DNA of 64,000 nt from Alloascoidea africana (lineage: Eukaryota > Ascomycota > Alloascoideomycetes > Alloascoideales > Alloascoideaceae): positions 124,001 to 188,000 of the forward strand of contig JAKTTT010000024.1 in NCBI GenBank assembly GCA_030581615.1, read 5' to 3'. This document shows, one piece after another, positions 27,850 to 53,704 of this stretch. The translations under genes and the position numbers were made by a program. The number at the start of each line of letters is the position of its first letter. Within the stretch, counting starts at the first letter, position 1. The notes beneath the pieces were generated by a model. It saw nothing but the letters and a program-made list of their open reading frames with translations, searched no databases and was not told where the DNA came from.

Positions 27850-29493
27850 TTACAACTTGTACTTGACCTCGGTCTTGGAAGCAGTTCCAGGACCAATTTC
27901 GGTCTGGGTGATTGAAATTGGTGCAAATGGAGCAAAAGGCCCCGTGGTTGGGTATTTCCCAACAACTGGTCCAACAGGTGCAATTCCCTTGGGGAATTTG
28001 TGGATTGGTGCACCATCTTCTGGAGTCCAATGCTTGGAGAAAGATTTGTTAAAGAATTCATCACCGTATTCAACAACATTTGCAATGTACTTGCCAATTG
28101 CAGGCAAGTTTTCAATGCCGAATTGGGCTTGACCGGTTCCCAAAATAAGGTTCTTGTACTGTGGGTGCTCACCTAACAAGAAAGGTGTTTCCAAAGTAGC
28201 AGAAGGTGCAAAAGATGCAAGCTTGGGAGCAGTTGGAGCAGGGAGAGTTGGAACGAGAGTAGGAGCAACGGGGAAAGGCTTTGCTGGAGCCACTGGAGCA
28301 GGTAAATCTGTGGAAGAGCTATAAACAACCTTGGGTTCTGCTGCGGTGGTTGTAGTAACCTCGACCTTTTTCTCAACATCACCGTCGGCTTGAACAGTGG
28401 TGGTTTCAACCTGAACAGCAGCAGGGGCAGGGACGGGGGCAGGGACAAGAGGAATTTCGATTCCAACATCTCTAGCATCACCAGAAATCACGGTCTTTTC
28501 AGCTTCTAGCTTAACGCCATGCTCGGTGACAACACCTGTAACAGCATTGTTTTCATCGAAAACCAGGGTCTGAACCTTATCTGGAACAAACTTTGCGCCT
28601 AATTTCTGCAATTCGTTGTAAACCACAGTCAACTTATCACTGGGCTTTGGACCCTCATAGTACTGGTAATTGGCACTGAGTTTCTGATCACCATCAACGT
28701 TATTCCACTTGTAACTTGTGTATTTCTCTTCTGGAGTTTCGTACTCATCGGAGGCCTGGAAAGTGCCCTTGAAGACAGGGTCCGATGTCCACAGCTTCGT
28801 GGACTCCTCTGTAAGGGCCTCGACCACAGCGGGCTCGGGCGTGGGCAGACTGACATGGGGTGGATGTGCGTAGCTTGTGGTTGTTTCCTCCTTCTTGACA
28901 GTGCCTCCTAGAGCAGAAGTGGTGGTTGTGGTCTCTTCCTTGACCAGGGCGGCTGGAGCAGTGGGGATAGGGGGCTGGATATAGGTGGTCTCTTCCTTGA
29001 CAGCGTACTCGGGAGCACCAGCGTAGACGGTGGTTTCTTCCTTGACGGTAACAGGGGCCGCTGGAACGGGCTTTGTTGGGAAATCAAACTCCACGGGGGT
29101 TCCATCTGGATAAAAAGCCACGGGCACTGGAGCAGGCACTGGAGCAGGAGCATCTGGATAGAACGGAGTAGGGGGCAATGGGGGCTTCACCTCGGTGCTC
29201 ACAGTCTCCTTTGTCACGTAGGCCGGGTGTATCTGGACGGGCTGTGGCTGCTGTTCCTGCTCGGTTTTGACGGTGGTGGTCTGAGCACCAAATGGCCCTG
29301 TTGTGGTGGTTGTCTCGGTGGTGGTGGTCTTGACCTCATCGACGGAGTCAATCACGTCGGCGGCATTGGGGTCGACGATGGTGACGTTTTTGTAGTCGTT
29401 ACGGAGCAGCCACAGGGCGGTGGACAGGCCGTAGGAGCCGCCTCCGATGACGAGGATGGGGGCGTTTTTGTCTGCGGGAGGAGGAGTAGACAT
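27850..29493 (-). CDS. DAO-fold FAD-oxidoreductase-like protein disrupted by KEETT low-complexity repeats
   Basis: A 547-residue intronless frame. Residues 11-42 form a Rossmann FAD-binding start (APILVIGGGSYGLSTALWLL, then VTIVDP) as in D-amino-acid and fructosyl-amine oxidases. About 240-345 keep a mid-domain (LGAKFVPDKVQTLVFDENN). About 448-480 keep the closing FAD segment (LILGTGQAQFGIENLPAIGK). Between these, two long Thr/Pro/Val/Glu-rich stretches replace most of the expected catalytic and substrate region. One holds at least four VKEETT-type repeats, the other Pro-Val-Ala runs. The carboxyl end is KYKL, a non-canonical PTS1-like tail. Codon use is strongly biased, like HSP60, which suggests high expression. 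It may be a pseudo-enzyme turned structural or scaffold protein. The function is not known; the fold assignment is fairly firm. It shares a divergent promoter with LRA1. Confidence 0.8.
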   Translation of the reverse strand: MSTPPPADKNAPILVIGGGSYGLSTALWLLRNDYKNVTIVDPNAADVIDSVDEVKTTTTETTTTTGPFGAQTTTVKTEQEQQPQPVQIHPAYVTKETVSTEVKPPLPPTPFYPDAPAPVPAPVPVAFYPDGTPVEFDFPTKPVPAAPVTVKEETTVYAGAPEYAVKEETTYIQPPIPTAPAALVKEETTTTTSALGGTVKKEETTTSYAHPPHVSLPTPEPAVVEALTEESTKLWTSDPVFKGTFQASDEYETPEEKYTSYKWNNVDGDQKLSANYQYYEGPKPSDKLTVVYNELQKLGAKFVPDKVQTLVFDENNAVTGVVTEHGVKLEAEKTVISGDARDVGIEIPLVPAPVPAPAAVQVETTTVQADGDVEKKVEVTTTTAAEPKVVYSSSTDLPAPVAPAKPFPVAPTLVPTLPAPTAPKLASFAPSATLETPFLLGEHPQYKNLILGTGQAQFGIENLPAIGKYIANVVEYGDEFFNKSFSKHWTPEDGAPIHKFPKGIAPVGPVVGKYPTTGPFAPFAPISITQTEIGPGTASKTEVKYKL

Positions 29494-30064: not shown

Positions 30065-30877
30065 ATGACTTTTCGTCTGCTGCTGGACAAGACCGTCGTC
30101 GTCACCGGCGGGCTCACGGGCATTGGCCGCGCCATCGCGCTCGGCATGGCCCGCCACGGCGCCAACGTGGTCGTGAACCACGAGCCCTCCCGCGAACAGG
30201 CCGCGCTGGCCGTGGAGATGGCCAAGGAGATCGCCAGCGAAACCGCCAGCGAAACCGCCAGCGAAACCACGAGCGGCCGCTTTCTGGCGGTGCCGGGCGA
30301 CATCTCGCAGCCCGAAACGTCGCGCGAGCTGATCCGGCTGGCCGTGGAGCGGTTTGGCGAGGTCAACGTGCTCGTGTCCAACGCTGGCATCTGCCCGTTC
30401 GCCCAGTTTCCCGAGATGCCCGCGGAGACCTACTTGAGGACCAGGGCCGTGAACCTGGACGGGGCCTTCTTCGTGGTCCAGGCCGCCGCGAAGCAGATGG
30501 TCCAGCAGGGCAAGGGCGGCAGCATCATCGGCATCTCGAGCATCTCGGCTCTCGTGGGCGGCTCGCTCCAAGCCCACTACACGCCGACCAAGGCCGGGGT
30601 TCTGTCGCTGATGCAGTCCGTGGCCTGTGCCCTGGGCAAGCACGGAATCAGAGCGAACGCCATTCTGCCGGGCACGATCGAGACGGCCATCAACAGAGAC
30701 GACCTGGCCGACGCCGGCAAGAGGAACTACACCATGGGACGAGTGCCCCTGGGCCGGTTGGGCAGTCCTCACGACATTGTGGGGCCTGCCGTGTTTCTGG
30801 CCTGCGACGAGCTGTCCTCCTACGTGAACGGAGCCCAGATCTTGGTCGACGGCGGCCTGTTTGTGAACTTACAATAA
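30065..30877 (+). CDS. LRA1: L-rhamnose 1-dehydrogenase (SDR family)
   Basis: A 270-residue short-chain dehydrogenase that would oxidise L-rhamnose to L-rhamnono-lactone with NAD(P), the first step of the non-phosphorylated fungal rhamnose pathway. The coenzyme loop is TGGLTGIG at 14-21, NAG lies at 106-108, and the catalytic residues are Ser159 or Ser161, Tyr172 and Lys176. The stretches GKGGSIIGISSISALVGG, YTPTKAG and the ending VDGGLFVNLQ are very close to the Scheffersomyces stipitis enzyme as I recall it. A repeat insertion (EIASETASETASETTSG, residues 56-71) comes from a 12-bp tandem. The gene is strikingly GC-rich for the window, especially at third positions. This could reflect transfer or expression-driven codon bias. 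It ends 26 bases before the end of LRA2, which faces it. Confidence 0.88.
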   Translation: MTFRLLLDKTVVVTGGLTGIGRAIALGMARHGANVVVNHEPSREQAALAVEMAKEIASETASETASETTSGRFLAVPGDISQPETSRELIRLAVERFGEVNVLVSNAGICPFAQFPEMPAETYLRTRAVNLDGAFFVVQAAAKQMVQQGKGGSIIGISSISALVGGSLQAHYTPTKAGVLSLMQSVACALGKHGIRANAILPGTIETAINRDDLADAGKRNYTMGRVPLGRLGSPHDIVGPAVFLACDELSSYVNGAQILVDGGLFVNLQ

Positions 30878-53463: not shown

Positions 53464-53704
53464 TCTGAATCAGATCTAGTTTGTATTGGTGATGATGAAG
53501 TCGAGATCTGGAAAAGCGGAGAGGAGGTGAAGGAAAATTGGCCACCACAGGTGGAGGCAGTGTTACCCGGATGTAAACAGAGGGAGGCAAATCCGGGCTG
53601 ATAATTACCCTGGTGTTCTGAACTTTACTTGCACATGTTCTTGCTGGCATAGTATTAATCCCCCCGCATAAAGAGAGAGTTTGCCCATCTACCTGAAACC
53701 AACA

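Follow-up and report, generated by a model that had tools for sequence, protein, structure and literature searches.

A probable pseudo-enzyme with KEETT repeats, derived from an amadoriase-type flavin oxidase, in the yeast Alloascoidea africana

What is encoded by a flavoenzyme gene whose FAD (flavin adenine dinucleotide)-binding segments are still recognizable while repeats stand where substrate and catalytic residues should be? The question is raised by P0003, a gene for a 547-residue protein on the minus strand of a 64,000-nucleotide stretch of the genome of Alloascoidea africana (contig JAKTTT010000024.1, positions 124,001 to 188,000; the whole stretch is hereafter called the window). Based on the comparisons given below, its product is probably a pseudo-enzyme that arose from a duplicated amadoriase-type flavin oxidase, with the FAD-binding domain maintained as a fold, the substrate domain and the catalytic residues lost, and flexible repeats carried. 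An earlier note on this DNA had proposed a pseudo-enzyme on an FAD-oxidoreductase fold; its interpretation as a whole is partly supported here. Not mentioned in it are the strand, the lack of cysteine, the existence of paralogues, the domain logic, and the conservation of residues 248-285 and of the tail.

P0003 is an uninterrupted open frame, and its product belongs to the DAO (FAD-dependent oxidoreductase) superfamily, as indicated by a significant match to the Pfam DAO profile (PF01266; E=5.3e-10, 39.8 bits against a cut-off of 27.9, in two stretches) together with collinear FAD-domain pieces. Its best match in the PDB is 3djd, the fructosyl amine oxidase amadoriase II (phmmer, whole-protein E=3.7e-15; E=3.9e-18 for a two-sequence profile of P0003 and its paralogue P0002), on which four pieces of P0003 lie in the same order as in the enzyme, namely residues 9-45 (21.3 bits), 221-245 (0.3 bits), 288-339 (11.1 bits) and 431-475 (20.6 bits in phmmer). 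The first and last FAD-binding segments and the mid-piece of the DAO fold that had been recognized in the earlier note are indeed kept. A three-piece FAD domain is likewise found in FsqB (PDB 6gg2), an amine-oxidase-family flavoenzyme in which the FAD domain comprises residues 1-97, 183-257 and 419-496 and the substrate domain comprises residues 98-182 and 259-418 (PMC6222107). The pieces kept in P0003 correspond to all three FAD-domain segments of FsqB, the second weakly (E 0.31 for the P0003/P0002 profile against FsqB 200-250) and the third by way of the 930-residue paralogue P0001, whose residues 820-885 align to FsqB 400-467; carried through that alignment, the start of the third piece of P0003 lies no more than a few residues away from the FsqB 419 counterpart. 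Neither of the two substrate-domain segments is left; 38 residues (248-285) stand in place of the first and a Pro/Ala-rich linker of 85 residues (346-430) in place of the second, whereas in FsqB the substrate domain is complete and the FAD is covalently bound (PMC6222107). Compared with 3djd, P0003 is without the substrate domain, the covalent Cys, the O2-activating Lys and the FAD-clasping loop, and approximately 260 residues of low-complexity sequence have been added.

The residues in contact with FAD in PnFPOX are given as Thr18, Asp41, Ser47, Ser50, Ala51, Lys57, Ile58 and Lys376, with Cys343 as the covalent link to FAD and Lys274 at the si-face (PMC5459902). Within P0003, the glycine turn (GGGSYG) and Asp41 are retained. 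The FAD-clasping loop (PnFPOX Ser47 to Lys57-Ile58) is replaced by repeats in all three of the repeat-bearing paralogues (P0001, P0002 and P0003); the cysteine that links the flavin covalently (3djd Cys335, PnFPOX Cys343) has no counterpart, as there is not a single Cys in either P0003 or P0002; the segment with the O2-activating Lys276 and the fructosyl-binding Glu280 (3djd numbering; Lys274 in PnFPOX) is absent from both; and the flavinylation Lys (3djd Lys368, PnFPOX Lys376, FsqB Lys448) has become Glu461 in P0003 and a Glu in P0002. The FsqB mutant K448A, which matches the position of Glu461, carried no FAD (PMC6222107). On the ring side of P0003, DSG has become QAQ and AGA has become GDA in the paralogue alignment. 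With the contacts to the flavin ring lost or altered, a working flavin site, and with it flavin chemistry, is unlikely in P0003; at the most, what may survive of the site is its ADP half. It is possible that the remaining GxGxxG/Asp half-site binds an ADP-containing ligand. A somewhat unlikely alternative takes this further and sees in P0003 a ligand sensor, whose Rossmann core would still bind FAD, NAD(P) or ADP-ribose without catalysis while the repeats signal to partners. That GGGSYG and Asp41 are kept in both short copies, with a non-synonymous divergence (dN) of 0.065 over residues 9-45, agrees with a sensor, but a conserved glycine turn is also expected if the fold alone matters, and the replaced clasping loop, the altered ring-side motifs and the change from Lys to Glu461 all speak against it.

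Paralogues were sought throughout the genome of the window (23.18 Mb in 138 contigs) and lie on contigs labelled C3 (P0002), C61 (P0001) and C9 (a 434-residue enzyme). P0002 (L053, 952-2457) has 501 residues, is 64% identical to P0003 and shares its plan. P0001 carries its insertion at the same point as the two shorter proteins, with approximately 520 residues placed after the first beta-alpha-beta unit, and 3djd is again the best PDB match, with the FAD-domain pieces in the same order. It lacks the FAD-clasping loop, the Cys (Gly834 stands in its place) and most of the first substrate segment, and it retains the larger second substrate-domain segment with Lys775 and Glu779, the counterparts of 3djd Lys276 and Glu280, as well as Lys867, the counterpart of Lys368; in its organization, P0001 looks like a living intermediate. 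Those three residues would also be an argument for an active, if unusual, oxidase that works with partner subunits or with non-covalent FAD, an explanation which is nonetheless very improbable, given that P0003 is without both substrate-domain segments, the O2-activating Lys, the Cys and the flavinylation Lys. The C9 paralogue is amadoriase/FPOX-like in length and residues (best PDB match 3djd, over residues 2-393); it carries the typical KSCW, and the FAD-clasping loop is present as NDYNKIIR. Unlike P0003, it lacks both the insertion and the codon bias. At the counterpart of Glu280 it has a residue other than Glu (KIATP), which leaves the identity of its substrate uncertain. P0003 matches it at 25% identity over 118 residues (blastp, E 5e-5), and a profile-profile comparison of the P0003/P0002 pair with an alignment of the 434- and 930-residue proteins gives 99.9% probability over residues 182-484. 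Close homologues of normal length, which the earlier note had named as evidence against its proposal, are therefore found in part: one paralogue is of normal length, and the two closer relatives both carry the insertion. Outside this genome, no relatives of the C9 protein or of the paralogue alignment were found in a genome-contig collection without fungal sets, seven records of a plasmid collection match P0001 on its DAO part only, PHROG gave no match, and searches of a library of papers showed no description of such a protein among the entries listed, those listed for the KEETT string looking unrelated by title. Elsewhere in the genome, a DAO-family match with in-frame stops (L025/L026, contig C53:98326-99643) is either a decayed oxidase gene or one that bears introns.

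Low-complexity sequence in P0003 amounts to approximately 260 residues, close to the 250 residues of Thr/Pro/Val/Glu repeats previously claimed, with 175 residues at 46-220 and 85 at 346-430; Thr, Pro, Val, Glu, Lys and Ala make up 73% of the former and 78% of the latter. KEETT occurs four times, at residues 151, 166, 185 and 201, in agreement with the claim of at least four VKEETT-type units, and when residues 46-220 were shuffled 100,000 times, no shuffle contained more than one. P0001 has six repeat units, which start with YYKH..VKQ..DG.YYKE or close to it and are spaced by 72-93 residues; from their pattern only, they may fold as hairpins. The last of them, VVKEETVTTTIDGTVRKEEVY, can be aligned to the KEETT units in P0003 and P0002, and a single origin of the P0001 repeats and the KEETT repeats is therefore probable.

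Whether such a protein is being kept or is decaying can be judged from the divergence of P0003 and P0002. In the folded pieces, dN is 0.065 (residues 9-45), 0.10 (221-285), 0.20 (286-345) and 0.11 (431-482), compared with values of 0.47 (repeats), 0.33 (linker) and 0.34 (tail) elsewhere; the far lower dN of the folded pieces shows that they are under stronger constraint than the repeats. Among the eight regions counted, the segment 248-285 has the highest identity (35/38). The tail GPFAPFAPxSITQT...TEVKYKL is common to both short copies and is not found at the end of P0001. With catalytic residues lost from an enzyme homologue that is under constraint, the genes can be regarded as a maintained pseudo-enzyme family, the product of neither decay nor an intron artefact, and the pseudo-enzyme reading of the earlier note is supported. 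That P0003 is a decaying pseudogene, or an artefact of annotation due to an intron or misassembly, is hardly credible: the large domain loss relative to normal enzymes and a few splice-like matches in the gene (one donor-like GTRHGW and five weak branch-like CTRAY) are outweighed by the open frames on three contigs, the conserved folded pieces, the biased codons, a shared upstream element and the lack of a consensus branch site. An intron is disfavoured specifically by the absence of YACTAAC from the gene and by the insert being in frame in two paralogues.

Codon usage bears on how much of the protein is made. Codon weights were taken from two TEF1, two enolase (these frames incomplete) and one HSP70 frames, with correction for amino-acid composition, and the ranking sample consisted of 31 open reading frames of at least 250 residues from the window and from five stretches around the paralogues. 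With or without the correction, P0001, P0002 and P0003 rank first to third, their excess per codon being 0.54, 0.51 and 0.48, respectively; next comes a chaperonin gene (0.38), while the C9 enzyme has an excess of 0.00 and an HSP70 gene left out of the codon weights has 0.72. In the plain codon adaptation index, whose weights also include a TEF1-like copy, the three repeat-bearing genes score 0.65-0.70, eight HSP70 frames 0.47-0.78 and that TEF1-like copy 0.45. High expression of the three genes, proposed earlier from the biased codons of P0003, is in this way supported indirectly.

A 15-mer, GTAAACAGAGGGCGG, is also found upstream of both short copies, at a distance of 116 bases for P0003 and 187 bases for P0002. 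Its 14-base core has exactly these two sites in the 23.18 Mb, compared with none for a reversed control, and a shared 12-mer of any kind was seen in only 2 of 2000 shuffled promoter pairs. No copy with fewer than three mismatches occurs in the 900 bases upstream of P0001, and none with up to four in the 600 bases upstream of the C9 gene. A wider regulon is not indicated, as the 11-base core shows no genome-wide enrichment (10 sites, versus 11 for the reversed control); for the same reason, a one-mismatch copy at window positions 53573-53587, between prohibitin-like (SPFH) and ankyrin-repeat genes, is likely due to chance. TATA-like boxes stand before P0003 and also before three other genes examined, including the normal C9 enzyme. 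The coordinates of all these features are collected in the table.

Table. Features of P0003 and its upstream region, in window positions (residue numbers are those of the P0003 protein)
Feature	Position	Strand	Remarks
Whole gene P0003, 547-residue gutted amadoriase-family protein	27850..29493	-	stop codon 27850-27852
Tail with conserved GPFAPFAP and C-terminal KYKL, residues 483-547	27853..28047	-	comparison with P0002
FAD-domain piece 3, residues 431-482, flavinylation Lys to Glu461	28048..28203	-	3djd 338-382; 43/52 identical to P0002, dN 0.107
Pro/Ala/Thr/Val linker in place of substrate-domain piece 2, residues 346-430	28204..28458	-	78% T/P/V/E/K/A; 30 identical of 51 aligned of 85
FAD-domain piece 2, residues 286-345	28459..28638	-	3djd 164-218; FsqB 200-250 weak, E 0.31; 45/60 identical to P0002
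Short conserved segment in place of substrate-domain piece 1, residues 248-285	28639..28752	-	35/38 identical to P0002
FAD-domain piece 1b, residues 221-247, TEESxKLWxxDPVFKGTF	28753..28833	-	paralogue alignment, weak in phmmer; 21/27 identical to P0002
Thr/Pro/Val/Glu repeat insertion in place of FAD-clasping loop, residues 46-220	28834..29358	-	73% T/P/V/E/K/A; dN 0.47; alignment
VKKEETT unit 4, residues 199-205	28879..28899	-	
VKEETT unit 3, residues 184-189	28927..28944	-	
VKEETT unit 2, residues 165-170	28984..29001	-	
VKEETT unit 1, residues 150-155	29029..29046	-	
FAD-domain piece 1a, residues 9-45, Rossmann beta-alpha-beta with GGGSYG and Asp41	29359..29469	-	aligns to 3djd 5-41; 32/37 identical to P0002, dN 0.065
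TATA-like box TATATAA	29563..29569	-	76 bases upstream of the P0003 ATG
15-mer element GTAAACAGAGGGCGG common to P0003 and P0002	29595..29609	-	14-base core with two exact genome sites

As to the surroundings of the gene, a Mem_trans transporter pair lies near both P0003 and P0002, in opposite gene order. No collinear block was seen that would support a segmental duplication of the two copies. The P0002/P0003 pair, with a synonymous divergence (dS) of 2.2, may be part of a larger duplication. The 49-kDa subunit of complex I (NUCM) is also encoded twice (L057/L058, contigs C18 and C34), with 417/442 aligned residues identical, different presequences and a dS of 2.6, and matches to enolase (dS of the duplicate, 1.0), TEF1 and HSP70 are likewise multiple in the genome; a genome-scale old duplication or hybridization is possible. 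The closest PDB chains to a complex I subunit of this genome bear the name NUCM, that of the Yarrowia lipolytica protein, which agrees with a yeast from that side of Saccharomycotina. Contigs C5 and C51 each have an elongation-factor-type GTPase match at their end (L036 and L037), with equal score and frame length, and the loci differ (1027/2134 positions agree in an ungapped comparison after reverse complementing); a contig end common to both, or a subtelomeric copy, may be the reason. Divergent to P0003, at window positions 30065-30877 on the plus strand, is a short-chain dehydrogenase gene with a third-position GC content of 0.88 and an effective number of codons of 35.5, in a window of 42.6% GC; by its composition, it could be horizontally acquired.

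How a pseudo-enzyme of this kind might have come about, and what it might do, can be set out as a series of steps. An amadoriase-type (DAO-family) oxidase gene would have duplicated; hairpin-like repeats would have been inserted first, giving the state of P0001, and the substrate domain would have been lost afterwards. The retained FAD-domain pieces might then fold into one small core, which could act as a scaffold or anchor from which the repeats are presented, in hairpin-like form in P0001 and in a more disordered one in P0003, and an abundant P0003 could perhaps assemble with itself or with partners, by analogy with the path from eIF5A to Hex1. Repurposing as a structural or phase-forming protein, as suggested in the earlier note, is plausible on this architecture. 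A stronger version is tentative and rather unlikely: it holds that two steps coexist in one genome, first an otherwise nearly complete oxidase whose FAD loop received Tyr/Lys/Pro hairpin repeats and then a form from which the substrate domain was removed, and that the outcome is an abundant, self-assembling structural protein on a bare Rossmann core. Hex1, the Woronin-body protein, derives from eIF5A and has a fold different from that of DAO; there, too, a soluble fold gave rise to an abundant structural protein, and the change in P0003 would add domain loss and repeat gain. In the enzyme-derived lens crystallins, enzyme folds were recruited to bulk or structural roles with the whole enzyme usually kept, whereas P0003 has been gutted.

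Amadoriases are presumably peroxisomal, and an unlikely proposal is that P0003 is a peroxisomal matrix assembly protein, which inherited import from its amadoriase ancestor and now forms or organizes a core within peroxisomes in the manner of self-assembling Ustilago maydis enzymes. Such peroxisomal cores of U. maydis are described in PMC11842775, where Hex1 crystals are also mentioned. The C-terminus of P0001, SKI, lies within the consensus for the type 1 peroxisomal targeting signal given in PMC12316961, in which SKI is the signal of Hansenula catalase, and a disordered protein of 1247 residues is able to enter yeast peroxisomes (PMC13167868). However, P0003 and P0002 both end in KYKL, and that consensus does not include Tyr at its first position (PMC12316961); the normal C9 paralogue ends in TLK, also outside it, and tripeptides that match so loosely often arise by chance. 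A disordered protein of the septal-plug type, like Neurospora SPA or Aspergillus SPP, would have its place in a hypha-forming yeast, but it is an improbable identity for P0003 and is disfavoured by composition: the disordered regions of SPP and SPA are described as favouring Arg and His and avoiding Lys and Gly (PMC10023807), whereas P0003 has 2 Arg and 7 His versus 39 Lys and 32 Gly in its 547 residues. Additionally, the word 'oxidase' does not appear in the main text of PMC10023807.

Several points weigh against the pseudo-enzyme scaffold as set out above. The scaffold role and the self-assembly of P0003 are suggested by architecture and composition only, and the packing of the DAO pieces into one core is not supported by a confident model, as AlphaFold2 run on the single sequence gave a mean predicted local distance difference test (pLDDT) score of 38.6 and a predicted template modelling score of 0.21, with only residues ~11-40 averaging a pLDDT above 70. 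Against 3djd, the pieces at 221-245 (0.3 bits, nothing by itself) and 288-339 (11.1 bits) are weak, and hhalign of the P0003/P0002 pair against the 434-residue enzyme alone recovers the last piece only (87%), so that the middle pieces lean on the 930-residue protein as a bridge. The dS between P0003 and P0002 exceeds 1 where computable and is not computable in three regions, which makes dN/dS ratios unreliable and is why the contrast in dN was used. Codon bias is an indirect measure, with several HSP70 frames and one TEF1-like copy falling below the repeat-bearing genes and others above them. Finally, loss of activity is less certain for P0001 than for P0003, because P0001 retains the counterparts of Lys276, Glu280 and Lys368.

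Pseudo-enzymes usually keep the whole fold and lose a few catalytic residues. Here, the loss extends to a whole domain, removed near its boundaries, and goes together with the insertion of a disordered or hairpin repeat; three paralogues and a normal enzyme, all in one genome, allow the successive steps to be read off. Annotation pipelines need caution here, as labelling a gene of this kind DAO suggests an oxidase where there is probably none. Should the codon bias reflect true abundance, this would be a major yeast protein without an assigned function, and if the two-step reading were true, this lineage would have made its own structural body or matrix from a flavoenzyme fold, much as filamentous ascomycetes made Woronin bodies from eIF5A.
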